From Burkholderiales bacterium (GTDB lineage Bacteria > Pseudomonadota > Gammaproteobacteria > Burkholderiales > UBA11063): a DNA stretch of 35,520 nt. Under the pieces are notes generated by a model. It was given only the letters and a program-made list of their open reading frames with translations. It had not been told where the DNA came from and searched no databases. Of the stretch, positions 4,934-26,444 are shown piece after piece. The translations under genes and the position numbers were made by a program. The stretch lies in contig JAIEPY010000038.1 of assembly GCA_019748155.1 (NCBI GenBank), forward strand, positions 1 to 35,520, read 5' to 3'. Numbering within the stretch: the stretch's first letter is position 1; every line of letters begins with the position of its first letter.

Positions 4934-7080
4934 ATGAGAAAAGATTGGATTGGATGTACGCTTGAAGATGTTTTAACGTTAAAAAATGGATTTGCATTTA
5001 AAAGTGATAAATATATTGAGAATGGAACTCCTGTAATAAGAATTTCAGATATAAACGATGCTATTGTGGAAACAACAAATGCTAAAAAAGTTCAAGCTCA
5101 AGAGAAGTATGAAAATTACTTAGTTGAATTTGGCGATATATTGATAGCTATGTCAGGTGCAACAACCGGCAAATTTGGCATTTATAAAGAAACTAGAAAA
5201 GCATATCAAAATCAACGAGTTGGAAATTTTAAATTACATAATAATAACTTTATTAATAAACATTACATTTATTATTTACTCTATGCGCTTAGAAGACAAA
5301 TCGAAAAAGATGCTTACGGTGGTGCGCAGCCAAATATATCATCAAAAAAAATTGAAGCTATGCAAATTACTTTAGCGCCGCTTCTTGAGCAGAAAGCGAT
5401 TGTTGCTAAAATTGAGCAACTTTTTTCTGAATTGGATAACGGTATAGCAAACCTTAAAGCAGCTCAAGCCAAACTTAAAGTCTATCGCCAAGCAGTTCTC
5501 AAAAAAGCCTTTAGTGGTGAACTAACTAAAGATTGGCGCGGAAAACAAACTAACCTCCCAACGGCTGAAGATTTAATTGAACAAATAAAGCAAGAGCGTG
5601 AAGAGCATTATAAACAACAACTCGAGGAATGGCAACAAGCCGTAAAAAATTGTGAAGATAATGGTCAGCAGAGTGATAAACCTCAAAAACCTCAACGATA
5701 TAATCCTATGATTGATAGAGATAATCAAACAGGTTTAATGCACATAGAGTTACCAAAAGGTTGGGGGTATTATAAGCTTGGTGAAGTCTACGAAGTATTT
5801 ATAGGCTCAACACCCAGTAGAAAAGAACAAGCATATTGGAACGGTAATATCAATTGGGTTAGTAGTGGTGAAGTAGCATTTAATAAAATAATGAAGACTA
5901 CAGAAACAATAAGTGCATTAGGTTTGAAAAAGACATCTACTAATTTACATCCTATTGGCACTGTATTGCTAGCAATGATTGGAGAGGGTAAAACTAGAGG
6001 ACAATCAGGGATTCTCGCAATTGAAGCTTGTCATAATCAAAATACTGCCGCACTAAGAGTTAACCAAAAATACTTGTCATCACAATTATTATATAATTTT
6101 TTTTATTATACCTACCAAGAAACAAGACGCATAGGGTCGGGAAATAACCAAAAAGCGCTAAATAAGAGTATAATTTCTAATATGTTTATACCTTTAATGT
6201 CATTTGAAGAACAAAACCAAATTGTTCAGGAAATGGAATCCGCCTGAGTGTTTGCGATAAAATTGAAGAAACTATTGAAAATGCGCTGAGTAAGTCGGAG
6301 GCTTTACGCCAAAGCATCCTTAAGAAAGCTTTTGAAGGTAGATTGTTATCTGAAGCAGAACTGGAAAATATCCGCAATCATCCAGATTACGAGAGTGCCC
6401 ATGCATTACTGGCTAGAATCAAGCAAGAAAAAGATCAAGCTTCGCAAATTTCTCTACCAAAAAAAACATCAAAACCAAAAGTATCAACGGATATTCATGC
6501 CGGTCTGATTGCCAAGATTATTAAAGCGCATCAGGATAATGGATATATGGAAAAACTATCTCATGTTAAATGTGAAAAAATTGCTCATCTGGTGGAGTAT
6601 CATATTGACGTAGCATTAGGTCGTGAGCCAGTCAAAGATGCTGCTGGACCAGATGATTATCCACATTTGAAAAAAGTTGAGCATCGTGCTATAAAAGCTG
6701 GATATTTTTCTGTTCATCAACAAGCAATAGGACATAGCTATCTTGCTGGGAGAAATATTGATAAAGCAATCAGAAAATTTGAGGAAAGTATAGAGGAGTC
6801 GCAGTATGATAAAGTTAATGACTTGATAACTCTATTTTTAAAATTTAATCTGGAACAATCAGAAATCGTTGCTACGCTTTATGCCGCGTGGAATAATCTG
6901 CTATTAGGTGGGAAAGACCCAGATGATGAAGAAATAGTCTATGAGGCAAGAGAAAACTGGTCAAGCCGGAAGTTGAACATAGATCGGGATAGGTTTTTTA
7001 AAGCTTTAGAATGGATGCGTCAAAAGGATATTTCATTGGTTCCTCGTGGCGCTGGTTTAATAGTTAGCAAACATTCATAA
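4934..7080 (+). pseudogene. hsdS: Type I specificity subunit HsdS, frameshifted, with C-terminal extension
   Basis: HsdS gives a type I system its DNA target through two target-recognition domains separated by helical conserved regions. The first 437 codons carry TRD1, the central conserved region (about residues 160-195, ending LKKAFSGELTKDW) and TRD2, then stop at a TGA at 6245-6247. The +1 frame continues the protein from 6241 without a break: RLSVCDKIEETIEN, then the second conserved repeat ILKKAFEGRLLSEAELENI. One missing base between 6240 and 6241 (expected ES-RL) explains the split. Restored, the product would be about 715 residues, longer than usual for HsdS because of a C-terminal extension of about 200 residues. 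Whether the frameshift is real, phase-variable, ribosomally bypassed or a sequencing error cannot be told here. It lies immediately after hsdR. Confidence 0.85.
6241..7080 (+). other. Out-of-frame C-terminal part of HsdS plus appended helical domain
   Basis: This frame is open from 6241; the first usable start codon would be the TTG at 6343. Its first 60 or so residues are the normal HsdS C-terminal conserved repeat. After a Lys/Pro/Ser-rich linker (QISLPKKTSKPKVS) comes an additional domain of about 190 residues, predicted mostly helical, with conserved-looking blocks KLSHVKCEKIAHLVEYH, DYPHLKKVEHRA and QSEIVATLYAAWNNLLL, ending in WMRQKDISLVPRGAG. I do not have a named family for this domain. 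Because it is fused to the specificity subunit, it probably binds DNA or another subunit (inference). Confidence 0.6.
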
Positions 7081-7096
7081 TTATGGAGTGATGGTT

Positions 7097-7969
7097 ATGG
7101 CAAAATTTGAGAAAGCATATAGTAAAACTCTTGATAAAGAAGTAGAAGCAGGAGAATATAAGCGGTGTGGTATAAATGAGACTGATGATTTGGAGTGTAT
7201 TGAATGTCGTAAATTAACAGCTGACAAACCCGCTATTTTGCATACAAAGCAACGAGTTTCGAAAAGTGGCACAACGATATTTTATGCAACTAACCCTAAA
7301 TCACCGCACCATAAAGAATGTTCACACTTTGCGCAGTTTACGGATGAAGAGATAATACAGTTGTTGACTTTGGAAACGCCAACTCCAGAACAACTACGGG
7401 CAAAAGATGATTTAATAAGACAAGCATTAGAGGCAGGAATAAGAAAACACAGTATTAAACCAAAAGACAAAAGTGGTGAAGATAATTTATCTAAAGATGT
7501 TGATGCTCCAAGCGAATCTAAATCTCATAAAAAAGGCGTGCAAGGTAATAAGAAAAAATTGTATATAGAACCAATGGCTATTTCAAAAATCGATAATGAT
7601 GCAGACTGTTTTGATCGATTAGTGCGTATCCATGGAAAAGTAATTATAAACGTAGAAAATGATATAAAAACAATAAACCATGGTGGAGTTGAGAAAAGTT
7701 TTACTAATAAGATAATAAAATTTTTGAAAAAAGATGGTAAAGTAATATTTTCTACATATATCGGGGAGTATGATGCAAATTATTTTGGAGTAGACCCGAC
7801 TGAAGAAGGTGATTTTTCAGCAATTTTCTCTGGCGTAGGTAAATTGGTAATTAAACCTATAAATGGTTATGATTTTATTAATTTTGAAAGTTTTATTCAT
7901 AAATACTTAACTAGAAGAGAATTTATATTTAAAGATTTATTGAAAGTTGGAAATGTCGGAAGCAAATAA
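7097..7969 (+). CDS. Hypothetical accessory protein inside the type I RM operon
   Basis: I do not recognise this protein (290 residues from the ATG at 7097, chosen because GGAG at 7085-7088 lies 8 bases upstream; in-frame GTG 7088 and ATG 7091 are alternatives). The N-terminal part has paired Cys/His motifs, ECIEC (about residues 35-39) and HHKECSHF (about 70-77), which could form a zinc site and recall the Cys/His pattern of CoiA-like N-termini (weak analogy). The middle (about 120-160) is a charged Lys/Ser/Asp linker. The C-terminal half is beta-rich (VIINVENDIK ... KVIFSTYIGEY). It starts 16 bases after the hsdS frame ends, and its last 17 bases overlap hsdM, so it is translationally embedded in the restriction operon. 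An accessory or regulatory role in restriction is an inference from position only. Confidence 0.75.
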   Translation: MAKFEKAYSKTLDKEVEAGEYKRCGINETDDLECIECRKLTADKPAILHTKQRVSKSGTTIFYATNPKSPHHKECSHFAQFTDEEIIQLLTLETPTPEQLRAKDDLIRQALEAGIRKHSIKPKDKSGEDNLSKDVDAPSESKSHKKGVQGNKKKLYIEPMAISKIDNDADCFDRLVRIHGKVIINVENDIKTINHGGVEKSFTNKIIKFLKKDGKVIFSTYIGEYDANYFGVDPTEEGDFSAIFSGVGKLVIKPINGYDFINFESFIHKYLTRREFIFKDLLKVGNVGSK

Positions 7970-9437
7970 TACTGCAAGTGTAATCAGTAAAGTATGGGGC
8001 TTTGCTAGTATGTTACGTGATGATGGCGTTGGTTATGGCGATTATCTGGAACAATTAACTTACCTTTTATTTTTGAAAATGGCAGATGAATATAGTAAAC
8101 CGCCATATAATAGAAAGTTGAGTATTCCAGTTGGTTATGGTTGGGAAAGCTTAACTGAAAAGCGTGGAGCCGAACTAGAAATTCACTATAGTGATCTTTT
8201 AAGAGTACTTGCCAATGCTAAAGGAGTACTTGGGCAAATTTTTACCAAAAGCCAGAATAAGATTCAAGATCCGGCAAAGCTTTATAAAGTCATTGACATG
8301 GTTAATAAAGAAAACTGGTCAATGTTTGGTGCAGACTTAAAGGGTAAAATTTATGAAGGATTACTGGAGAAAAATGCTGAGGATACCAAAAGTGGTGCTG
8401 GGCAGTATTTTACTCCGCGGGCACTTATTCGGGCAATGGTAGAATGTATTCGACCAGCACCCAATAAAACAATTATTGATCCTGCTTGTGGTACTGGTGG
8501 ATTTTTTCTGGCTGCATATGATTATATTGTCCAGAATCATGATTTAGACCGTGAGCAAAAGGAGTTTCTAAAAAATAAGACTTTCTATGGTAATGAAATA
8601 GTTGCTAATACCCGTAGAATGGCATTAATGAATATGTTCCTACATAATATTGGTGAGATTGATGGTGAAAGCCTAATTTCGCCTAATGATGCACTGATTG
8701 CTGATGATGGCATAAGGTTTGATTATGTTTTGGCAAATCCACCGTTTGGTAAAAAGAGCTCAATGACTTTTACCAATGAAGATGGTGATCAGGATACCGA
8801 AGATTTAGTTTATAACCGACAGGATTTTTGGGCAACAAGTTCAAATAAGCAATTAAATTTCCTGCAACATATTAAAACTTTGCTTAAGATTAATGGACAG
8901 TCCGCGGTGGTGTTACCAGATAATGTTCTTTTTGAAGGTGGATCAGGTGAAACAGTCCGTAAGGAGTTAATGAAGACAGTAGATCTTCATACAATACTGA
9001 GGCTTCCTACTGGTATTTTTTACAAGCAGGGTGTAAAAGCAAATGTGTTATTTTTTGACAATAAACCAGCAAGTAAAGATGCTTGGACAAAAGAAATCTG
9101 GATATACGATTTCAGAACCAATATCCATTTTACGTTAAAAAAAGACCCGATGAAATTTGAGGACATACAGGATTTTATCAAGTGCTATAACCCAGCTAAT
9201 AGGTATATTCGTACCGAAACTTATAGTAGTGAAAATCCTGAAGGTCGCTGGCGAAAATTTACATATGAAGAAATAATTACTTGTGACAAAACCAGTCTAG
9301 ATATTTTCTGGCTTAAGGATAAGAGCTTAGCTGATTTGGATAATTTGCCAGATCCAGATATTCTGGCTAATGAAATTATGGAAGATTTGGAAGCTGGGCT
9401 TGAAAGTTTTAGAGAAGTTGTTAATTTAGTTCATTAG
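7953..9437 (+). CDS. hsdM: Type I DNA adenine methyltransferase subunit (HsdM)
   Basis: HsdM transfers a methyl group from S-adenosylmethionine to the N6 of adenine in the target chosen by HsdS, protecting host DNA. The 494-residue protein has the N-terminal helical HsdM domain (about 5-140), the SAM-binding motif I DPACGTGG (D176-G183) and the catalytic motif IV NPPF (N262-F265). The ATG at 7953 is preferred over the in-frame TTG at 7947; it overlaps the upstream accessory gene by 17 bp. hsdM comes last here rather than between R and S. All catalytic motifs are intact, so methylation would depend on whether any functional HsdS is made from the frameshifted gene. Confidence 0.95.
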   Translation: MSEANNTASVISKVWGFASMLRDDGVGYGDYLEQLTYLLFLKMADEYSKPPYNRKLSIPVGYGWESLTEKRGAELEIHYSDLLRVLANAKGVLGQIFTKSQNKIQDPAKLYKVIDMVNKENWSMFGADLKGKIYEGLLEKNAEDTKSGAGQYFTPRALIRAMVECIRPAPNKTIIDPACGTGGFFLAAYDYIVQNHDLDREQKEFLKNKTFYGNEIVANTRRMALMNMFLHNIGEIDGESLISPNDALIADDGIRFDYVLANPPFGKKSSMTFTNEDGDQDTEDLVYNRQDFWATSSNKQLNFLQHIKTLLKINGQSAVVLPDNVLFEGGSGETVRKELMKTVDLHTILRLPTGIFYKQGVKANVLFFDNKPASKDAWTKEIWIYDFRTNIHFTLKKDPMKFEDIQDFIKCYNPANRYIRTETYSSENPEGRWRKFTYEEIITCDKTSLDIFWLKDKSLADLDNLPDPDILANEIMEDLEAGLESFREVVNLVH

Positions 9438-12498: not shown

Positions 12499-12527
12499 GA
12501 ATAATAATATTCTGGTTTTGTTATAAT
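12499..12527 (+). promoter_or_regulatory. Extended -10 promoter with overlapping palindrome for the murein-sugar operon
   Basis: TGTTATAAT at 12519-12527 is a perfect extended -10 about 45 bases before the kinase ATG. The inverted repeat GAATA-ATAA-TATTC (12499-12512) covers the -35 position and could be a repressor site, though AT-rich sequence makes chance palindromes common. Confidence 0.55.
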
Positions 12528-12571: not shown

Positions 12572-13501
12572 ATGAAAAAAATATTTTGTATTGGTGAGTT
12601 GTTAGTTGATTTTATGGGGCAAAGTTCCCAAGGTCTTGTTAAAAGTAATCAATTTGCCAAGTTCGCAGGCGGTGCTCCGGCCAATGTTGCTGCGGCAGTC
12701 AGTAAACTTGGTGGCCAGGCAGTATTTATGGGGCAGGTTGGGCAAGATAGCTTTGGCGAATATTTATTAGCTGCATTAGCTGAACTGGGAATTGATACCC
12801 ATCTTTGTAAGCGTGAGGGCAAAACAACTCTGGCATTTGTTGCGCTGGATGCTCATGGTGAACGTGATTTTGAATTTTATCGCGGGAGTGATGGCGATTA
12901 TCAATTTGCTGAGTTTGAAGTAGATAATCTAAATTCTGAGGATATTGTTCATTTTGGTTCCGCTACTGCTTTAATGGGTGGGCGTTTGCGTACTAGCTAT
13001 TTCCAATTACTTGAAATGGCAGATGCTAATAAAAATTTCATTAGTTTTGATCCCAACTATCGTGAAGATTTAATTAGTGCTGATATGATGGCAAATTATT
13101 TGCATGATTGCAAAACTTTTATCTCTTATGCCGATGTAGTTAAGCTCAGCGAAAGTGAAGCACAGTTAATCAGCGGTGAAGATGATCTGGATAAGGCGCT
13201 GGCTTATTTACAATACGTTGGAGCTAAAACTGTGATTGTAACTCTGGGAGCAAAAGGTAGTATGATTGCCAATGCTCAGGGAACTAGATTGATTCCCTCG
13301 CGTAAAATTACACAAGTTGACAGCACTGGTGCGGGCGATGCGTTTGTTGGTGCATTACTTTTTAAATTAGCCCAACATTCAGAGCCAAATTGGGATGCTT
13401 TTGTGGCTTTTGCTAATTTGGTCGGCGCATTTAGTTGTACCAACTATGGCGCAATTAAATCTATGCCAACTATGCGTCAATTTCTTGAATTTATCAACTG
13501 A
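12572..13501 (+). CDS. PfkB-family sugar kinase (fructokinase-like)
   Basis: A ribokinase/PfkB-type ATP-dependent sugar kinase of 309 residues. It has the N-terminal sugar-binding signature GGAPANVAAAVSKLGG (about residues 31-46) and the C-terminal PfkB signature DSTGAGDAF with catalytic Asp256. Overall it is closest to ScrK-type fructokinases (GELLVDF start, FVALDAHGERDFEFYRGSD). The ATG 12572 is chosen over TTG 12560 because AAGG precedes it by 3 to 4 bases and homologues begin near MKKIFCIGE. As first gene of the murein-sugar operon it might phosphorylate a sugar released or imported by this pathway. That role is inferred from position; an ordinary fructokinase activity is equally possible. 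Confidence 0.9.
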   Translation: MKKIFCIGELLVDFMGQSSQGLVKSNQFAKFAGGAPANVAAAVSKLGGQAVFMGQVGQDSFGEYLLAALAELGIDTHLCKREGKTTLAFVALDAHGERDFEFYRGSDGDYQFAEFEVDNLNSEDIVHFGSATALMGGRLRTSYFQLLEMADANKNFISFDPNYREDLISADMMANYLHDCKTFISYADVVKLSESEAQLISGEDDLDKALAYLQYVGAKTVIVTLGAKGSMIANAQGTRLIPSRKITQVDSTGAGDAFVGALLFKLAQHSEPNWDAFVAFANLVGAFSCTNYGAIKSMPTMRQFLEFIN

Positions 13502-13512
13502 GAATAGTAATC

Positions 13513-14880
13513 ATGAAAATTAAATATTTACTGTTACTAATCAGTGGACTATCCATTTCATCAGTTATGGCAGAGAGCCAGTGCAATTTTTTTGCCGCAA
13601 GTGGCTCAATTGCCAAGTCTGCTCTTTTAACGCAAGGCAAGCCTGAGAGTTATGGCTTTGATTCTAAGAAACTTGCACTGGTTGATCAGCAAATTAATCA
13701 GGATGTAAAAAATGGTTTCCCCGGTGCGGCATTATTGATTATCAAAGATGGACATGTGATTAAACAAAATGTTTATGGCTCAAGTCTAAAATATGATTTA
13801 AAAACTGGTAAACCATTAGCTAAGCCAATACCTGTAGAGTGCAATACTTTATTTGATTTAGCATCAAATACAAAAATGTATGCTACCAATTATGCAGTAA
13901 TGCATTTGGTTGCAGAAAGTAAGCTGGACATTGATAAACCAATTAGTTTTTATTTACCCGCATATAAAGGCTGCGATAAGAATGGGCAATGCCGTGAAAC
14001 TAGAACCGTTCGCGATTTACTGACGCATAGCGCTGGTTACATGCCTAGTCCACAATTTTATAATCCACAGGCCATTGCACAATACGGAAATGGTCTGTAT
14101 TCACAAAATCGCCTCACCACTGAATCAACCATCTTAAATAAACTTCCTTTTGAGCGCGCGCGCGGAGGTAAACCTGTCTATAGTGACGTGGACTTTATGT
14201 TGCTGGGAGTGATCATTGAAGCAATAAGCAAACAATCATTAGAGCAATATGTTGCACAAAGTATTTATCAGCCATTAGGGCTAACATCTATTACATTTAA
14301 TCCTTTGCTGAATGGTTATAGCCATAAATCGTGTGCAGCAACTGAGGTTGATGGTAATACACGCGGTGGCAGTATTAAATTTCCAAATATTCGCACGATT
14401 CCAATTCAATGCCAGGTTCATGATGAAAATTCCTATTATTCAATGGGTAGTGTTTCCGGGCATGCTGGATTATTTGCTAATTTAGCGGATATGGCGGTAT
14501 TGATGCAGCTTGCGCTAAACAATGGAAGCTATAATAAGGTGAGGTTATGGACTCCTGCAGTTGAAACACAATTTATTGCACCCATGGCTAGCGATGATAC
14601 CTATGGTGTTGGTTGGCGAAGGGCAGGAGCAAAAAGTAATTATGCTCCATTTGGACACTATGCGAGTAATCAAGCGTTTGGGCATACCGGCTGGACTGGC
14701 ACGCTAACCCTGATTGATCCCAAGTATGATTTGGCAATTGTGTTATTAACTAATAAAAAACATAGCCACTACAAAGATGGTAAATTTGCAGGCGATAGCT
14801 TTGCTACAGGTAGTTATCATCAGATTGTTGATTTAATTTATCAAAGCTTAGATGCCACCGCAAAAAATGTTACATATTAA
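13513..14880 (+). CDS. Secreted serine beta-lactamase-like hydrolase (YfeW/PBP4B type)
   Basis: A 455-residue class C beta-lactamase-fold enzyme with a Sec signal peptide (MKIKYLLLLISGLSISSVMA). The active-site triad motifs are present: SxxK as S118-N-T-K121, YxN as Y223-S-D225, and the KTG equivalent H391-T-G393. The LFDLASNTKMYAT context and overall length match E. coli YfeW (PBP4B), a D-Ala-D-Ala carboxypeptidase/esterase encoded beside murP, the same neighbour as here. It likely trims peptidoglycan peptides or a related ester in the periplasm. It starts 11 bases after the kinase stop, with only a weak ribosome binding site (GAGAA). Confidence 0.88.
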   Translation: MKIKYLLLLISGLSISSVMAESQCNFFAASGSIAKSALLTQGKPESYGFDSKKLALVDQQINQDVKNGFPGAALLIIKDGHVIKQNVYGSSLKYDLKTGKPLAKPIPVECNTLFDLASNTKMYATNYAVMHLVAESKLDIDKPISFYLPAYKGCDKNGQCRETRTVRDLLTHSAGYMPSPQFYNPQAIAQYGNGLYSQNRLTTESTILNKLPFERARGGKPVYSDVDFMLLGVIIEAISKQSLEQYVAQSIYQPLGLTSITFNPLLNGYSHKSCAATEVDGNTRGGSIKFPNIRTIPIQCQVHDENSYYSMGSVSGHAGLFANLADMAVLMQLALNNGSYNKVRLWTPAVETQFIAPMASDDTYGVGWRRAGAKSNYAPFGHYASNQAFGHTGWTGTLTLIDPKYDLAIVLLTNKKHSHYKDGKFAGDSFATGSYHQIVDLIYQSLDATAKNVTY

Positions 14881-14905
14881 TTAAATTTTAAAAAAGGTTA
14901 TTATT

Positions 14906-15190
14906 ATGAGTTTTAATCCACAAGTAGTGGCAGATCAGATTTTTGAATTAACCAGCATTGCAGGTATTAAGACTACTGCAATTTGTATGACACGTTTTCG
15001 CCTTAACCTAAGAGACTATAACAAGATTGATTTAGCCGCATTAAAATCTCTTGATGGGGTTGCTGATGCGGTGATTGTTGATGAGCAATTACAAATTGTA
15101 ATGGGGCTGGGTAAAGTAGTTAAGGTCTATGAGTGTTTTAAACCTTATTTGGAAAACGACGCTGTGATCTTAGCAGAAATTAAGCGCTAA
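14906..15190 (+). CDS. Stand-alone PTS EIIB domain protein (glucose/sucrose family)
   Basis: A 94-residue phosphocarrier: the EIIB domain of the glucose-type PTS family with its phosphorylated cysteine, C27, in ICMTRFR, and the typical LQIVMGLGKV near the end. It is a close paralogue of the EIIB domain at the N-terminus of the next gene: both begin with FNP.(Q/V)..(A/V)..QI.(D/E)L and keep CMTR(L/F)R. It has a good AAGG ribosome binding site and ends 11 bases before murP. It may offer a second phosphotransfer route to the EIIC domain, or act as a sensor/regulator; both are inferences. It has no membrane segment. Confidence 0.9.
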   Translation: MSFNPQVVADQIFELTSIAGIKTTAICMTRFRLNLRDYNKIDLAALKSLDGVADAVIVDEQLQIVMGLGKVVKVYECFKPYLENDAVILAEIKR

Positions 15191-15201
15191 AAGGAAGGTT
15201 C

Positions 15202-16620
15202 ATGGAAAATCAAAGTAAAGCTGTTGCATTTAATCCTGAACAAATAGCGCAACAAATTTGGGACTTAGTATCACCACATGGTATAACTGCGGTTGAAATC
15301 TGTATGACACGCCTGCGGATTACACTAAAACATAAAGAGTTAGTCGATATTGCCAAAATCAAAGCAATTTCTGGAGTGCTGGGCGTAGTTGATACACCAG
15401 ATCAGCTTCAGATCATTATAGGTCTGGGTAAGGTGAATCAGGTTAATGAAAAATTCCAGATTTTGCTAAATGCGGCACCAGTTGCGACGCCAGATGTCGC
15501 GGTGGTTAGTGAAACTAAGGCAAATGATGCTGGTTCATTAAAAGAAAAATTAAAACAAAAAAATTCGACACCATTCAAGAACTTCTTGAAAAAATTAGCC
15601 AATATTTTTATCCCGATGATTCCAGCTTTTATCGGTTGTGGTCTGGTACTTGGGATTGTTAATGTTTTGACTAAATCGCTAAGCCCTGAAACCTTGGGAG
15701 GAATGCCATTTGACCAAACTACGGTTGGTGCTATTCTCAAATTAATTGGTGGTGGAATTACTTTTGGTCTGGCGCTGTTTGCTGGGTTAAATACATCCAA
15801 AGAGTTTGGTGGTACGCCGATTTTGGGTGGTGTGCTAGCGGCAGTATTAACCATGCCAGGTTTATCGGCAATTACCGTTTTTGGTGAACAAGCAACTCCT
15901 GGTCGAGGTGGGGTTATTGCGGTGCTTTTTGTGGCAATTTTTGCCGCTTGGCTGGAAAAACGACTGCGTAAAGTAATTCCGGTGGCGCTGGATTTATTCG
16001 TAACTCCGACCTTAGTTTTGCTTATTTCTGGATTCTTAGCTATTTTTATTTTACAACCAATCGGTGGCGTAATTTCTGATGCAATAACCAATGGCTCCAA
16101 ATTAGCGGTAGATCATGGCGGTCCGGTAGTTGGATTTATTTTAAGTGCGGCATTTTTACCATTAGTTATGACCGGATTACATCAAGGACTTACTCCGATT
16201 CACGCTGAGTTAATTAAGACCACTGGCTCGACAGTTTTGCTGCCGATTCTAGCGATGGCAGGAGCGGGTCAAGTTGGTGCGGCATTGGCGGTGTGGTTAA
16301 AAACTAAAAATCAAAAACTAATTCATATTATTAAATCTGGTATTGTTGTTGGTTTCCTAGGCGTTGGTGAACCATTAATCTACGGCGTAACTTTACCATT
16401 GTTTCGTCCCTTTTTAGCGGCGTGTATCGGTGGTGGTTTGGGTGGTGCTTTTGTGGCAACTTTCAAACTAGGTGCAACAGGAATTGGTATTTCTGGCTTG
16501 CCTTTAACGTTATTAATTCATAATGGAATGCTATTATATCTACTGGGTATTTTGATTGCTTATGTTGGTGGATTTATTGCTACTTTGATCGTCGGTTTTG
16601 ATGATAGTGTAATTGAATAA
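15202..16620 (+). CDS. murP: PTS EIIBC component, MurNAc type (MurP)
   Basis: An inner-membrane PTS permease that phosphorylates its sugar during uptake. The 472-residue protein (E. coli MurP is 474) has an EIIB domain with phospho-cysteine C34 in EICMTRLR (1-90), a Lys-rich linker, and an EIIC domain of about ten membrane segments (120-470) with GVGEPLIYGVTLP, the family's conserved substrate motif. Assignment to MurNAc uptake rests on similarity to MurP and on the neighbours YfeW and MupG; other sugars of the glucose/sucrose family cannot be excluded. No EIIA domain is fused, so a Crr-like EIIA from elsewhere must supply phosphate. Confidence 0.9.
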   Translation: MENQSKAVAFNPEQIAQQIWDLVSPHGITAVEICMTRLRITLKHKELVDIAKIKAISGVLGVVDTPDQLQIIIGLGKVNQVNEKFQILLNAAPVATPDVAVVSETKANDAGSLKEKLKQKNSTPFKNFLKKLANIFIPMIPAFIGCGLVLGIVNVLTKSLSPETLGGMPFDQTTVGAILKLIGGGITFGLALFAGLNTSKEFGGTPILGGVLAAVLTMPGLSAITVFGEQATPGRGGVIAVLFVAIFAAWLEKRLRKVIPVALDLFVTPTLVLLISGFLAIFILQPIGGVISDAITNGSKLAVDHGGPVVGFILSAAFLPLVMTGLHQGLTPIHAELIKTTGSTVLLPILAMAGAGQVGAALAVWLKTKNQKLIHIIKSGIVVGFLGVGEPLIYGVTLPLFRPFLAACIGGGLGGAFVATFKLGATGIGISGLPLTLLIHNGMLLYLLGILIAYVGGFIATLIVGFDDSVIE

Positions 16621-16658
16621 GCATAAATTTAGCTTTAGTAATAGTGAAGAGGCTTTTA

Positions 16659-18095
16659 GTGAATAGATTGTTTAAATTTGGTCTGCTATTAGGCATGGTT
16701 AGCTTTGTGTCGGCAACCGAACTGATTAATATTTTTCCAATGGAAAGCTATAATCAAGATGTTTCCGCTTGGATTAAGCCTGATGCACCAGATTATAAAC
16801 AATCACTGCTAAGTGAGGACTATCAGAAACTACGGCTGCAGGAGTTTTATCAGCATTATTATAGTAGTGCTGAAAGCGATTTATCACCGTGGAGTCGCAA
16901 TTATGTTAACAGTCAATTAGTTCAATCAGAAAGCATTAATATCATCCAGACTGAGCGCCAGATTTTGGCTGGTTTTAATAATCCTATTGATGTCAAAAAA
17001 ACTGCTTATGGTGAAAATTATTTACCATATAAAGCGGCATGGTTTGCCAAAGTTGGGCGTAATATGGGTTTGGATAAGCCGATAGAGTTATCATATGCTG
17101 ATAATAAGCGTGCCATTGCGGTGGATAATCTATTGGTTCGTACGCTTCCAACCAGTGATCCATTATTTTATAGTAACAAGATTGCTGGTGAAGGATATCC
17201 TTTTGATAACCTTCAGGAAACTGCCGTTTTTATTGGCATGCCACTTTATGTTATCAAACAAAGTGCAGACAAAGAATGGAGTTTAGTTATTGCTTCAGAT
17301 GATGTTGGCTGGGTTCGTACTTCTGGCATTGCGATGGTTGATGATAAATTTATTGCTACTTGGCAAAAAGCTGCTCGCAAAAATATAGTGGCAACAATTG
17401 CACAAAATTCGTTGATTGATGCTAGTGGTGTTTTCCGTGGTATGGCATATAATGGTGGTACTTTTCCGTTGGTGAATAAAAGTGAGTCCGTTTATAATAT
17501 ATTAATGCCTGTGGCAGATTTAAAACGTAATGCACAGATTATTAAGGTTAAAATTGGTCAATCTGATGGAGTTGTTATGCCGTTGAAATTAACTCCGGAA
17601 AATATAGCCCGGATTATGCGTAATCAAATTGGCAAGCAATACGGCTGGGGCAGTATGTTTTTTAATTATGATTGTTCGGCAGAAACCAAAGCTCTCTTTG
17701 CGCCATTTGGTATTTATTTGCCGCGTAATTCTGGCTTTCAGTCATTAGCTGGTAAAACCGTGATTTTGGATAATTTATCTAGTACTGAGCGTGAACAATA
17801 TTTATTAAAAAATGGACATAAATTCTTAACATTAGTACAAATCCCGGGGCATATTCTACTCTATATCGGTAATTATGCTAACCCCAATTCAGCACAACAT
17901 GAATCGGTCGCAATGAGTTATCAGAATATCTGGGGCATGAAAACTAGCGCCAATGATACACGCTATGTTATTGGTGGCTCAGTGCTTTTACCGCTATTAG
18001 CACAATATCCTGAACAAGCTGATTTAATGTCTTTTTATGACAGTACACGATCCAAATTTAGACTAGTATATCTCGATCAATTTCCTGAAAATTAA
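16659..18095 (+). CDS. Secreted SH3/NlpC-P60 peptidoglycan endopeptidase
   Basis: A cell-wall cysteine peptidase of the C40 family, expected to cleave gamma-D-Glu-diamino acid bonds in stem peptides. The layout matches the multidomain NlpC/P60 family with an N-terminal stabilising region (about 20-120), bacterial SH3 domains (about 140-310) and a catalytic C-terminal domain with C339 in YDCSAET and the histidine in IPGHILLYIG. A signal peptide (VNRLFKFGLLLGMVSFVSA) is present. I prefer the GTG at 16659, with AAGAGG 6 bases upstream, over the GTG at 16644. Between murP and mupG it fits generation of importable muropeptides or sugars. Confidence 0.88.
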   Translation: MNRLFKFGLLLGMVSFVSATELINIFPMESYNQDVSAWIKPDAPDYKQSLLSEDYQKLRLQEFYQHYYSSAESDLSPWSRNYVNSQLVQSESINIIQTERQILAGFNNPIDVKKTAYGENYLPYKAAWFAKVGRNMGLDKPIELSYADNKRAIAVDNLLVRTLPTSDPLFYSNKIAGEGYPFDNLQETAVFIGMPLYVIKQSADKEWSLVIASDDVGWVRTSGIAMVDDKFIATWQKAARKNIVATIAQNSLIDASGVFRGMAYNGGTFPLVNKSESVYNILMPVADLKRNAQIIKVKIGQSDGVVMPLKLTPENIARIMRNQIGKQYGWGSMFFNYDCSAETKALFAPFGIYLPRNSGFQSLAGKTVILDNLSSTEREQYLLKNGHKFLTLVQIPGHILLYIGNYANPNSAQHESVAMSYQNIWGMKTSANDTRYVIGGSVLLPLLAQYPEQADLMSFYDSTRSKFRLVYLDQFPEN

Positions 18096-18115
18096 TATTT
18101 GTGAGGCAATGACAT

Positions 18116-19201
18116 ATGGCTAAAGGTATTTCAGTATTTTTGGGGCTTGATTGGAGTTTGGAAGATAATCTGGAATATCTAACGCAAGCAGCACAAGCTG
18201 GATTTAGCCGTGTATTTACTTCATTGCATATTCCTGAAGCTAATTATTCACAGCTAATCTCCGAATTTAAGCAAATATTAGACCTGGCAACTGGGCTAGA
18301 TATGGCAGTAATTGCCGATATTTCACCTAATGCCTATCAATATTTGCAAGTTGAAGCACATGATTTAGCGGCATTTAAAAAAATAGGCTTGGCTGGTATC
18401 CGTTTGGATTACGGTTTTGCACCTGAATTAATTGCAAGCTATACCAATAATGATGCTGGTTTATTAATTGAACTCAATGCTAGTACCATGAGCGCAGAAT
18501 TTATGCAACAAATCATGAGTGCCGGAGCTAATGCCAAAAATATCTCGGCGTGTCATAACTACTATCCACGACAAAATACCGGGATATCTCTCGAATCACT
18601 CCAGCGTAAAAACCAAATTTTTCATCATTATAATGTCCCGGTAAGTGGGTTTATTGGCTTGGCAACTGGACGACGTGGACCGCTTTATGAAGGTTTGCCA
18701 ACACTAGAGTTTACACGTAGTTTTGCACCACAAGTCAGTGCGCAGATACTTTTAGCTGCTGGTATTGACCATGTATTTATTGGTGATGCACAGGCAGATT
18801 TACCAGCTTTACAGCGCCTCGGAAAACTTACGCCAGATATCATTGAATTGGACGTAGCTGACTATCTGCCAAATCCAATTTATAGTGAATTATTTCAGCA
18901 GATTCACACCAATCGTCCTGATGCTGCTGCAGATATTATCCGTTCGCAGGAAAGCCGCCTGATGCTTCTGGAAAATAATGTTATTCGTCGTGAAGTGCTG
19001 GCAGAAAACTGTGTGGTGCGCAATAAAGGAAGCATTACCATTGATAATATTGCCTATGGGCGCTATAGTGGAGAACTACAAATTTGTAAACGCGACTTGG
19101 CTGCCGATGAACGGGTTAATGTGATTGGGAGAATTAACGATGATAGTTTACATTTGTTGGATTATATCGGTGACAACCAAAGATTTAAACTAGTGATTTA
19201 G
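18116..19201 (+). CDS. mupG: 6-phospho-N-acetylmuramidase MupG (DUF871 family)
   Basis: A cytoplasmic glycosidase of the family formerly called DUF871. The characterised Staphylococcus aureus member MupG splits MurNAc-6-phosphate-GlcNAc delivered by MurP. The 361-residue length, the start GISVFLGLDWSLEDNLEYL, a TIM-barrel part (about 1-240) and a C-terminal cyclophilin-like part (about 245-361, with ENCVVRNKGSITIDNIAYGRYSG) all match. No signal peptide. The ATG follows GTGAGG at 9 bases. It closes the operon. Its product MurNAc-6P would need MurQ, not found in this window. Confidence 0.9.
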   Translation: MAKGISVFLGLDWSLEDNLEYLTQAAQAGFSRVFTSLHIPEANYSQLISEFKQILDLATGLDMAVIADISPNAYQYLQVEAHDLAAFKKIGLAGIRLDYGFAPELIASYTNNDAGLLIELNASTMSAEFMQQIMSAGANAKNISACHNYYPRQNTGISLESLQRKNQIFHHYNVPVSGFIGLATGRRGPLYEGLPTLEFTRSFAPQVSAQILLAAGIDHVFIGDAQADLPALQRLGKLTPDIIELDVADYLPNPIYSELFQQIHTNRPDAAADIIRSQESRLMLLENNVIRREVLAENCVVRNKGSITIDNIAYGRYSGELQICKRDLAADERVNVIGRINDDSLHLLDYIGDNQRFKLVI

Positions 19202-21000: not shown

Positions 21001-21840
21001 ATGAAGAAAAATAAATTAGTATCACCAATCTTTAAGTGGGTAGGTGGTAAAAGGCAGTTATTGCCTGAAATAATAAAGCATCTCCCAAAAATGAGTGGGT
21101 ATACTTACTATGAGCCATTTGTTGGCGGTGGAGCGGTGTTATTTGAATTGCAACCTAATAAAGTAGTTATTAATGATTCTAATGTTGAGCTAATGAATGC
21201 ATATGCAGTTGTTAAAGATTACGTTGAAGAGTTAATTGAAGATCTTAAAAAACATAAAAATGACGCAGATTATTATTATAATTTGAGACTGTTGGATCGA
21301 GCACCACTATTCTATCATCAGTTGACAAATATTGAAAAAGCTTCACGGATGTTATATTTGAATAAGACGTGCTTTAATGGTCTATTTAGAGTTAATAGTT
21401 CTGGTGAATTTAATTCTCCATTTGGTAACTACAAAAATCCTAATATTGTTAACGAAGTTACTTTAAGAGCAGTTAGTAATTATTTGAGTGCTGTTAATAT
21501 AGAATTTAGAGTCGGAGATTTTGAAGCTGCTTTAGATGGTATTAGAAGAAACTCTTTTGTTTACTTTGACCCACCGTATGATCCTATATCAACGTCTTCA
21601 AATTTTACTGGATATACATCAAGTGGATTTGGTAAAAATGAACAAATTAGACTAAAACTATTATGTGACCGATTAACTTTACAAGGGATAAAGTTTATTT
21701 TATCTAATTCAGCCACTGAGTTTATAAAAGATTTATATAAAAGTTATACTATTGAGATAGTTCACGCCAGAAGGTCAATAAACTCCAATGCTTCTTTAAG
21801 AGGCGAAATTGATGAGGTTTTAATAAAAAACTATGAGTAA
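21001..21840 (+). CDS. DNA adenine methyltransferase (D12 class, Dam/DpnM-like)
   Basis: A 279-residue N6-adenine methylase of the alpha (D12) group. It shows the N-terminal FKWVGGKRQLLP (11-22), SAM-binding YYEPFVGGGAVLFEL (about 37-51), the motif VVINDSN, the catalytic DPPY (190-193) and the C-terminal region LSNS. The family includes Dam and DpnM/MboIA, which modify GATC; the target here is not proven. It lacks a clear ribosome binding site. Its last 8 bases overlap the next gene, so it is the modification half of a type II system. Confidence 0.92.
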   Translation: MKKNKLVSPIFKWVGGKRQLLPEIIKHLPKMSGYTYYEPFVGGGAVLFELQPNKVVINDSNVELMNAYAVVKDYVEELIEDLKKHKNDADYYYNLRLLDRAPLFYHQLTNIEKASRMLYLNKTCFNGLFRVNSSGEFNSPFGNYKNPNIVNEVTLRAVSNYLSAVNIEFRVGDFEAALDGIRRNSFVYFDPPYDPISTSSNFTGYTSSGFGKNEQIRLKLLCDRLTLQGIKFILSNSATEFIKDLYKSYTIEIVHARRSINSNASLRGEIDEVLIKNYE

Positions 21841-23119
21841 ATTAAGTAAAAATGATATTGCATGGCAGCAAATTTTTGATAAATACGACATAATTGAGAA
21901 AGTTCAACAGAATGGACAGTTTGAAATAACGGCTACTGCAATAAAAGGTATAAGTGGGCGAGAGGCTCGCTTAATGGCAAAATTTGATAATAGAGCAAAT
22001 TTACCAAGATTATTTCAAAAATATCATTTATCAATTTTACCTATTACTCGTGGTAGCTACGTTATTGCACCATTCGAAACGTATCAAGATTTTCCGACAG
22101 ATATGCACGGTGTTGAAACTATCTATATCCAATTTCCAGAGCACATTGAAAGCATAGACCCAAATAATATTACAAGTGAAACAGCTGCAGTCAATAGTGC
22201 ATTTTTGTCTGGAATATTGGCTAATTTTATAGACGACGATGAAGAGCTTATTCCAACGGTAAATGGGCGAATGAGTTCTAATAGCTTTTCATTTAAAATA
22301 AATAATGTATTAACTAAAAAACAAATGCCAATTTATGTGCAAAATTCGCAAATTGAGATTGATGTAGCATATGAGGGTGTTTCTACATTATCATTAATTG
22401 AGGTAAAAAATAATATTGCAGATGATTTTCTTGTCAGACAGCTGTATTACCCTTATAGACGTTGGCAAGAACAGCTTAGAAAACAAGTAAAAACAATCTT
22501 TGTTGTTTACACTAATAATTCATTTTTCCTTTATGAGTATATCTTTAATTCTATTGATGATTATAATTCAGTAAAATTAAATAAAATGAGGAAGTATTGT
22601 TTTGAACCACTAGATATTGGTATAACAGATATTGAGAAAATAATATCTAATACTTGTGTTATGAGTGAGCCTACTAATGCTCCTTTTCCTCAGGCAGATA
22701 GTTTTGCGAGAGTTATCAACCTATGCGAGCTTTTGCAAGAAGATAGTTTGACAAAAGAGGAAATTACCATAAATTATGATTTTGACATGCGTCAAACTGA
22801 TTATTATTTTAATGCGGGTAAATATTTAGGATTGTTTGAGTTATCAAATGAGCAAATATGTTTAACTGAAACAGCCACTAAAATATTAACTTTAGCGCCA
22901 CGGGCTAAGCAGCTTGAATTTGTAAAATTAATAATGCAGCATGCGCCATTTAGGATGGTATTAGAAAAACATTTGAAAACGTCTCAGCCTCCGACTAAAG
23001 AAGAGGTTATAGAGATAATGAAAATGTGTAATTTGAACAGGATCGGGGATAAAACATATGAGCGAAGATCCTCAACTGTTATTGCGTGGGTGAATTGGAT
23101 TTTAGATTTAGCTAGATAG
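21833..23119 (+). CDS. Type II restriction endonuclease, PD-(D/E)xK fold
   Basis: A 428-residue protein partnered with the adenine methylase. A nuclease core is visible at D177 (IEIDVAYEG) ... E190-V-K192 (LSLIEVKN), followed by the helix LVRQLYYPYRRWQEQ, a pattern typical of PD-(D/E)xK enzymes. The N-terminal part (about 1-130) is probably target recognition. The C-terminal part (about 290-428, with TKEEITINYDFDMRQTDYYFNAGKYLGL and RRSSTVIAWVNWIL) looks like winged-helix DNA-binding modules. The start ATG overlaps the methylase stop (ATGAGTAA), ensuring coupled expression. It should cut the same unmethylated target; sequence specificity is not readable. Confidence 0.82.
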   Translation: MSKLSKNDIAWQQIFDKYDIIEKVQQNGQFEITATAIKGISGREARLMAKFDNRANLPRLFQKYHLSILPITRGSYVIAPFETYQDFPTDMHGVETIYIQFPEHIESIDPNNITSETAAVNSAFLSGILANFIDDDEELIPTVNGRMSSNSFSFKINNVLTKKQMPIYVQNSQIEIDVAYEGVSTLSLIEVKNNIADDFLVRQLYYPYRRWQEQLRKQVKTIFVVYTNNSFFLYEYIFNSIDDYNSVKLNKMRKYCFEPLDIGITDIEKIISNTCVMSEPTNAPFPQADSFARVINLCELLQEDSLTKEEITINYDFDMRQTDYYFNAGKYLGLFELSNEQICLTETATKILTLAPRAKQLEFVKLIMQHAPFRMVLEKHLKTSQPPTKEEVIEIMKMCNLNRIGDKTYERRSSTVIAWVNWILDLAR

Positions 23120-24655: not shown

Positions 24656-24681
24656 AAGAAAAGTCCTTGCGGACTTTTCTT
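24656..24681. terminator. Bidirectional terminator between rmuC and ggt
   Basis: A perfect 11-bp stem (AAGAAAAGTCC / GGACTTTTCTT) with a 4-base loop TTGC lies between the convergent genes. T-rich tracts leave the stem on both strands, and the right arm touches the ggt stop codon. Confidence 0.9.
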
Positions 24682-26444
24682 AGTTAGCGATAGCTAATCC
24701 TTCACGGCGTGGGTCAGCTGCGCCACTCCAGCCATCATTAGTACGAATTATATTGGTTTCACCACTAACTAAATCACTTCTAACCACCGATTCACCCAAG
24801 GCATTTAGCTTATCTAGTTGTGCACTGAATATTGAATCACCATTTTCTAAAACTGGTACTGCATTGGCTGCACAGAGATTAGGTGAGGAGGATGCTTCAG
24901 CTGCTGATTTTTTGAAGTCTAAGATTTGAATCAGGTTTTTGGCAACATAACAAATAATCTGACTACCGCCAGGAGAACCAGTTAGTACTTGCAAATTATG
25001 CTCCTTATCAAAAACCATCGTTGGAGCAATTGACGAACGAGGACGTTTACCAGCTTCAACGCGATTGGCAACTGGTTTACCAGATGCATCGGTTGGTGCT
25101 AACGAGAAATCGGTTAATTCATTATTTAAGAAGAATCCATTGGTAAAGAGATGGCTACCAAATTGATGCTCAACCGTTACGGTCATTGTAACCGCATTGC
25201 CATCTTTATCCACAATAGATAATGATGTGGTTCCATGAGCTTTTGGACTATTATCTGCAACGTATTTAGGATCAGCGCCGTATGGCTTGCCGGGCGCAAC
25301 TGGTGTTATTAGTGCTGCCGATTCATTAATTAGTTTTGCACGCTCATCCAAATATTTATTATTCAGTAACCCTGTGATAGGTTGTTTAACAAAATCAGGA
25401 TCAGCAAGATATTGATTACGATCGGCAAAAGCTAATTTACTTGCTTCATAGAAATTATAAACCCAATTTATATCTGTGAATGCACTTTCTCCTGTTTGAG
25501 TATAATTGCGAGCATAGATAGCCAATAATTCTTGGACTGTAACTCCACCACTTGATGATGGAGGCACGGAGCAGATGTCATATTGATCGCGATAAGTACT
25601 GCATACTGGTTCCTTAACCTGTACTTTATATGCACTGAGATCTTTAGCACTCATTAGCTTTTTATTCGCGCTTTTATTTACCGTTTCAACAATCTCATGA
25701 GCAATTTTGCCAGTATAAAACTCCTGCGGATTTTTGGCAATTATTTCTAATGTATCCGCATAAGCAATATTGCTAACTTTATCGCCAATTGGTTTTACTT
25801 CGCCTTGAGCGTTAAAATAAACTTTGGCAACTTGTGGATTATGTTTTAAGATATCCTGATCACTTTGTAATAAACCGTAGAGTCTTGGACTCATCGGGAA
25901 GCCATTACGGGCTAGAGTGATAGCGGGTGTTAATAATTTATTCCATGCTAGTTTTCCATTTTGTTGATGCATCTTATAAAATAAAGCAACCTCGCCAGGA
26001 ACACCAACTGAGAGTGGACTTAACATTGCCGATTCAAAATTTATTGGTTTAGAGGTTTTGGGGTCGATAAACCACTCTGCTGTAGCGCTTAGTGGGGCAA
26101 CTTCACGCCCATCAAAAGCTAGTAGTTGTTTGGTTGGTTTGTGCATGGTAGCTAAGGGCGTAGCCTCCGCCGCCAATTCCTGAGGATTGTGGTTCAGTTA
26201 ATCCCAGAACAAACGCTGCAGCAATTGCGGCATCTGTTGCATTGCCACCTTTATCAAGCATTTGTTGAGCGGCTTTGCTTGCCCACGGATTATTGGTGAC
26301 TATCATTGAATGTTTACCAGTAAGCAATGGCTTTTCAGTTTTAGCGGTTGCGACTTCTGGCGCTACAGGCTGGGAGGCAGTAGCATTAGCGAATAGCGGA
26401 ATTATACTGCTTAATACAAGCAGTGCAATTTTATTCTGTTTCAT
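24680..26444 (-). pseudogene. ggt: Gamma-glutamyltranspeptidase, frameshifted
   Basis: Gamma-glutamyltranspeptidase is a periplasmic N-terminal-nucleophile hydrolase that self-cleaves and hydrolyses glutathione. The first 110 codons (signal peptide MKQNKIALLVLSSIIPLFANA, then the conserved GGNATDAAIAAAFVLGLTEP and GIGGGGYAL) are in one frame, which ends at 26112. The rest (KQLLAFDGREVAP ... to the end) is in another frame, open from 26176. Removing one copy of a duplicated 4-bp unit at 26130-26137 restores a continuous 586-residue protein (E. coli Ggt is 580), with the nucleophile Thr at about residue 404 (HGTTSLSIVD) and the PGGSQI substrate loop. As written it is inactive. It follows ackA by 17 bases and has an AAGGA ribosome binding site. 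Confidence 0.9.
26130..26137. repeat. Tandem TTGG duplication that breaks ggt
   Basis: TTGG occurs twice in a row (plus-strand reading) within a low-complexity stretch TTGTTTGGTTGGTTTG. One copy fewer brings the two halves of ggt into frame as HAQT-KQLLAFDG, the expected sequence. This fits slipped-strand mispairing. Confidence 0.8.

Follow-up and report, generated by a model that had tools for sequence, protein, structure and literature searches.

Which sugar is imported by the six genes at positions 12,572 to 19,201 of contig JAIEPY010000038.1 (assembly GCA_019748155.1, Burkholderiales bacterium), and why do two predicted wall peptidases stand beside a transporter of the phosphotransferase system (PTS)? 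The window, i.e. the whole stretch analysed, comprises 35,520 nucleotides (positions 1 to 35,520, forward strand). The comparison covered 23 genomes of the host genus, taken as Aquella, its own genome among them, with G005 as the sister genome. Several of these genomes are incomplete (52-100%), so gene absences across the genus are soft.

The six genes are probably a PTS operon for sugars containing N-acetylmuramic acid (MurNAc) in an Aquella species. A first-pass annotation had described a MurNAc-sugar salvage operon which mixes the enteric murP-yfeW pair with a MupG of Gram-positive type, and the layouts known from E. coli and from mur operons support this description. The genes, coordinates and families given there were confirmed by profile matches. 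All six open reading frames (ORFs) are co-directional, with gaps of 11, 25, 11, 23 and 20 bases:

12572..13501, + strand: PfkB-family kinase, fructokinase type (PF00294, 2.6e-66)
13513..14880, + strand: PBP4B/YfeW, serine peptidase-like, putatively exported (485 bits; cut-off 385)
14906..15190, + strand: free EIIB of 94 amino acids, by its sequence a partial duplicate of the MurP EIIB domain (domain tree, Cys27)
15202..16620, + strand: predicted MurP, PTS EIIBC (transporter tree)
16644..18095, + strand: four-domain NlpC/P60 endopeptidase, DvLysin/PnpA type (3m1u, 8.8e-54; 6sqx, 6e-49)
18116..19201, + strand: MupG, 6-phospho-N-acetylmuramidase family (MupG_N 2.5e-74, MupG_C 4.8e-32)
12519..12527, + strand: candidate extended -10 promoter element TGnTATAAT, 5' of pfkB (conserved in four genomes; weak)

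The order PfkB-PBP4B-EIIB-MurP-MupG is repeated in G005 with protein identities of 76-97% and is thus not a product of chance. Taken from the DNA, the proposal builds on this order, on the families and the MurP-type transporter, and on MurQ, NagA, an EIICB of the N-acetylglucosamine (GlcNAc) type and EIIA encoded elsewhere in the genome.

Transporter and free EIIB

The EIIC domain of the transporter was matched with 119.7 bits, its EIIB domain with 23.5 bits, under the Pfam cut-off of 27. In a tree of 21 rows, seven Aquella and five mur-locus transporters are separated from nine rows of sucrose, beta-glucoside and trehalose type (support 100/100). The best match in the plasmid collection (47.8% identity) is a protein adjoining murQ in Priestia, and a Collinsella match sits in a murQ-murP-mupG cluster. 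Going by the grouping with mur-locus transporters, the protein is assigned to the MurP type; transport of MurNAc itself is predicted.

Orthologs of MurP with at least 74% identity were found in 7 of the 23 genomes, and none was detected in 38 genomes sampled from other families of the order. PBP4B lies upstream of MurP in six of the seven; the free EIIB stands in between in the window and in G005. MurP and a MurQ ortholog occur together in six genomes, MurP alone in one, MurQ alone in two and neither in 14 (Fisher p 0.0017, uncorrected for kinship).

The free EIIB was seen in the window genome and G005 only, and the active Cys27 is retained in both. Its Pfam EIIB score of 20.8 bits is under the cut-off of 27; the best NCBIfam match is MurP (1.8e-12), and it groups with the EIIB domains of Aquella MurP (97/94). 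The ratio of nonsynonymous to synonymous substitutions (dN/dS) against G005 is 0.146 for the free EIIB, 0.028 for MurP and 0.137 for the neighbouring cbiQ. As judged from these comparisons, the free EIIB is a conserved partial duplicate of the MurP EIIB domain, evolving under constraint. It probably relays phosphate or competes for it.

MupG, partner genes and the PfkB kinase

Both MupG domains passed their cut-offs (MupG_N 250.2 bits against 24, MupG_C 111 bits against 24.4), and the structures 1x7f (3e-54) and 2p0o (2e-48) were matched. Five Aquella, three mur-operon and three non-mur DUF871 proteins were compared. Eleven positions unite the Aquella proteins with the mur-operon MupGs and are missing from the three other DUF871 proteins. 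As S. aureus MupG stands outside this comparison, the name rests on the family, the neighbourhood and these 11 positions. For S. aureus the biochemistry of MurP and MupG is established, and they are described as serving the recycling of its own wall (PMC6262408, in the part available).

MupG occurs in 5 of the 23 genomes. It directly follows MurP in G004 and G005, and NlpC/P60 in the window. Outside the genus, a sample of 368 further genomes of the class gave no MupG; its close relatives on named contigs belong to metagenome assemblies of Neisseriales/Burkholderiales (three loci). According to the accessible text of Kluj and colleagues, MupG is mostly found in firmicutes, with few cases in Fusobacteriales, Chlamydiales and Spirochetales (PMC6262408). 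The literature search yielded no paper devoted to MupG in Pseudomonadota, and three papers with a single mention of the name each. Since MupG is present in 5 of 23 genomes of the genus and in none of the 368 others, it looks acquired; transfer is the simplest reading, and a donor was not found. In G008 (87% complete), where a MurP ortholog was not found, MupG follows genes resembling, by their N-termini, an FGGY kinase, a GntP permease, a FAD oxidoreductase and a sodium-solute symporter (L021 7789-14832).

MurQ and EIIA had been noted as missing locally. This holds for the window, and both were found elsewhere in the genome. MurQ passed its equivalog cut-off (412.8 bits against 302) and is encoded on contig C112, the operon being on C115. 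EIIA is present twice, as an 838-amino-acid EIIA-HPr-EI fusion adjoining the GlcNAc-type EIICB and as a glucose-type EIICBA; NagA was found over its cut-off. Of the genes which the first-pass annotation proposed to look for, murQ and EIIA are thus present, so that the lack of both, named there as a refutation, does not apply, and a MurR (RpiR type) was not among the five SIS matches in the genome. These were read as two GlmS, a KdsD-like protein, MurQ and a DiaA/GmhA-like protein of 199 amino acids, and none has the RpiR layout.

ROK, BadF and AnmK were matched in 9, 11 and 4 of the 23 genomes, respectively, and gave no match in the window genome (the glucokinase family PF02685 was not searched for). 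Because all three are unmatched there, MurP is the only source of MurNAc 6-phosphate (MurNAc-6P) found. In G005, AnmK lies near MurQ, flanked by genes for a CoA-transferase and a sugar transporter, and this three-gene block is missing at the matching place of the window genome (L134 3861-7734 against L016 8696-11816). A BadF-type kinase over the cut-off occurs in 10 of the 23 genomes; these have only weak MurQ matches in frames of about 500 amino acids (L098 616-2199, L099 4205-5722), one of which was scanned and contains a GKRP-type SIS domain. No BadF match was obtained in the eight genomes with a true MurQ ortholog.

In the proposed route, the EIIA-HPr-EI fusion would supply phosphate to MurP, which would import MurNAc and MurNAc-GlcNAc as 6-phosphates. 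MupG would split MurNAc-6P-GlcNAc, MurQ would convert MurNAc-6P to GlcNAc 6-phosphate and D-lactate, and NagA would continue from GlcNAc 6-phosphate.

The PfkB kinase presumably acts on a hexose. Its best NCBIfam model is fructokinase (202 bits, below the cut-off of 450), and its best structures are of the fructokinase type as well. Among the nearest homologs in the plasmid collection, which are about 43% identical and share motifs with it, are kinases from a sucrose and a GH32 operon (Ilyobacter, Citrobacter). In contrast to these, the Aquella kinases have PBP4B as operon partner and 11 positions which are invariant in eight Aquella rows and absent from five reference kinases. Close orthologs (at least 50% identity) were found in 8 of the 23 genomes; PBP4B is directly 3' in four and follows a gene of the MgtC family in two (G001 and G006; L042 11506-12015, L043 12744-13253), and in the other two the contig ends at PfkB. 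The dN/dS of PfkB against G005 is 0.014. A scan of viral contigs with PfkB showed no relative.

The fate of GlcNAc after MupG was called unclear in S. aureus (PMC6262408, 2018; available part). As neither ROK nor BadF was matched in the genome, PfkB is a candidate GlcNAc kinase for the second product of MupG. This idea was kept only as a bold reading: two genomes without MupG, G001 and G006, have PfkB together with PBP4B. The pair is likewise present in the incomplete G003 and G011, where no MupG was found, G004 has MurP and MupG and no close PfkB, and the kinship to sucrose- and GH32-operon kinases counts against the idea as well. We consider it rather doubtful that the locus is a self-contained Gram-negative MurNAc-GlcNAc operon, with a transferred MupG, a fructokinase-derived PfkB as GlcNAc kinase and the free EIIB as a new phosphate relay to MurP.

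Stem-peptide hydrolases and the source of the sugar

The PBP4B gene matched the Beta-lactamase family (7.6e-54) and passed the PBP4B equivalog (485.1 bits). Over 425 amino acids the protein shares 44% identity with E. coli YfeW, and it retains SxxK, YSD and HTG; in E. coli the PBP4B gene follows murP. The neighbours of PBP4B genes on plasmids gave no lead.

The NlpC/P60 protein matched SH3_6 (64 bits) and NLPC_P60 (26.9 bits, cut-off 23), so its SH3b1 and catalytic domains both exceed their cut-offs. Its c-clip domain N_NLPC_P60 stays just under the cut-off (22.6 against 25.4 bits), and SH3b2 was unmatched by Pfam. The closest structures, DvLysin and PnpA, have the same domain order, and Cys344, His403 and Asn428 align with the catalytic residues of PnpA. 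Unlike these two, the protein described here is encoded in a predicted sugar-uptake operon. Both relatives are reported as specific for the bond between gamma-D-Glu and meso-diaminopimelic acid, and PnpA as secreted by type II secretion and cutting the wall of two Vibrio species and not of several others (PMC7860986, available part).

The idea of a dedicated endopeptidase did not stand. NlpC/P60 was matched in 16 of the 23 genomes, in some in pieces only, and the surroundings in G001, G002, G006, G008 and G009 never place it beside murP; in G005 there is no match. The genes diaA and gabD, which flank it in G002 and G008, adjoin each other directly in the window genome. Either the gene was relocated into the operon or it was lost from the operon of G005; the comparison fits both directions.

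The suggestion that the sugars come from whole wall or from foreign bacteria found no support either. The PBP4B and NlpC/P60 families act on stem peptides, not glycan, so neither protein would make a MurNAc disaccharide, and no glycan-cutting enzyme is among the six genes. Signal-like N-termini, judged by eye, predict export of both, possibly to the periplasm only. There, outside the cytoplasm, they would trim peptide stems.

Several observations weigh against a MurNAc operon. Neither MurQ nor MurR is encoded in it, and two of the seven MurP genomes are without a close PfkB. The transporter does not pass the curated NCBIfam MurP model (293.2 bits, cut-off 516) and scores the same on the sucrose model (293.1 bits, cut-off 559.3); both values being 293 bits and below cut-off, model scores cannot separate the two. 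Long-branch warnings attach to the transporter tree and include the branch of E. coli MurP. The unrooted 11-row MupG tree sets the Aquella proteins with the non-mur DUF871 rows (91/88); their identity is 34-35% to the mur-operon MupGs against 31-36% to the others (36% to a Listeria DUF871 protein). In G002 and G008, MupG stands apart from MurP with other upstream neighbours. The equal model scores and the kinship of the kinase would suit a repurposed sucrose or fructan PTS operon with a sucrose-type EIIBC and a fructokinase, the DUF871 protein and the hydrolase having another function. This is very improbable, as the transporter groups with mur loci in the tree, PBP4B and MupG are neighbours, and neither a sucrose-6-phosphate hydrolase nor LacI is encoded in the operon. 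A. oligotrophica P08T is reported as sucrose-negative, and all other GEN III substrates as not used, in the available text of its description (PMC6612550). This strain, taken as G001, has the order PfkB-MgtC-PBP4B-MurP. Fructose and trehalose are presumably GEN III plate substrates and, if so, were also not used by P08T. Transporter tree and gene content led to rejection of the sucrose operon, the fructokinase-like kinase notwithstanding.

For the preferred MurNAc operon, the origin of the sugar has to be weighed. Recycling of the own wall, with PBP4B and NlpC/P60 trimming turnover fragments in the periplasm and MurP recovering the sugar, is a serious candidate, held at somewhat less than an even chance. 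The signal-like N-termini, the periplasm as the Gram-negative default and the role of MurP and MupG in S. aureus (PMC6262408, as far as available) agree with it; it is at variance with the report, in the part available, that wall turnover in Gram-negatives mostly yields anhydro-sugars (PMC5061867), AnmK being unmatched here. Export of NlpC/P60 to attack other bacteria, followed by uptake of their sugars through MurP, is unlikely; in its favour stands the homolog PnpA with its secretion and its action on the walls of two Vibrio species (PMC7860986, accessible part). The known substrate of MupG, MurNAc-GlcNAc, is moreover described as a Gram-positive turnover product in the available text of PMC6262408. 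However, among the genomes read only one has NlpC/P60 in the operon, and the inability of both hydrolases to cut glycan speaks against scavenging as well.

Surrounding sequence and operon history

The PfkB ORF was called mechanically from 12560, and the ATG at 12572 was taken as start; the NlpC/P60 start may be the GTG at 16659, with GAAGAGG just 5' of it, according to our reading. The upstream regions of the window, G005, G002 and G008 share the extended -10 element that precedes pfkB here. It is not among the hits of a simple sigma-70 scan and has no good -35. Between 12200 and 19400, 24 promoter-like sites were counted against 25.2 in shuffled sequence, and 10 terminator-like sites on both strands against a mean of 6.3 (standard deviation 2.1); none of either kind was accepted. 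An Rfam search of the window gave no match. The operon is flanked 5' by a cobalt-transport set on the opposite strand (cbiM, cbiQ and an ATPase of the ABC type) and 3' by an ATPase_2 gene.

Elsewhere in the window, positions 2219-9437 hold the R, S and M genes of a type I restriction-modification system. Two ORFs separating S from M (6343-7080, 7088-7969) matched no Pfam family at 0.001. At 21001-23119 a D12-class adenine methyltransferase adjoins a protein with DUF6996, DUF6997 and DUF7226, perhaps forming a restriction pair. A gamma-glutamyltranspeptidase on the minus strand (24680-26444) is split over two overlapping frames and is one 602-amino-acid frame in G005; either a sequencing error or a broken gene would explain this.

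The operon shares murP beside PBP4B/YfeW with the murQ-murP-yfeW operon and divergent murR of E. coli. It differs from it by the unlinked MurQ, by the absence of a MurR among the genes seen, and by the additional PfkB, free EIIB, NlpC/P60 and MupG. With mupG-murQ-murP-murR of S. aureus (PMC6262408, available part) and with the Aerococcus, Lacticaseibacillus and Collinsella loci it shares the clustering of MupG with MurP. In contrast to the S. aureus-type operons, murQ and murR are outside the cluster, PBP4B, PfkB and the endopeptidase are inside, and the host is Gram-negative.

The operon would have grown stepwise around the shared core PfkB-PBP4B-MurP. MupG was probably acquired, the free EIIB would have arisen before the G005 lineage split off, by duplication of part of MurP, and NlpC/P60 would have been added by relocation or lost on the sister side. 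The MurP-MupG route, described in Gram-positives, would thereby be extended to a Gram-negative freshwater bacterium, and a candidate for the GlcNAc kinase downstream of MupG is provided. Furthermore, the growth of an operon by acquisition, domain duplication and relocation can be followed within one genus.

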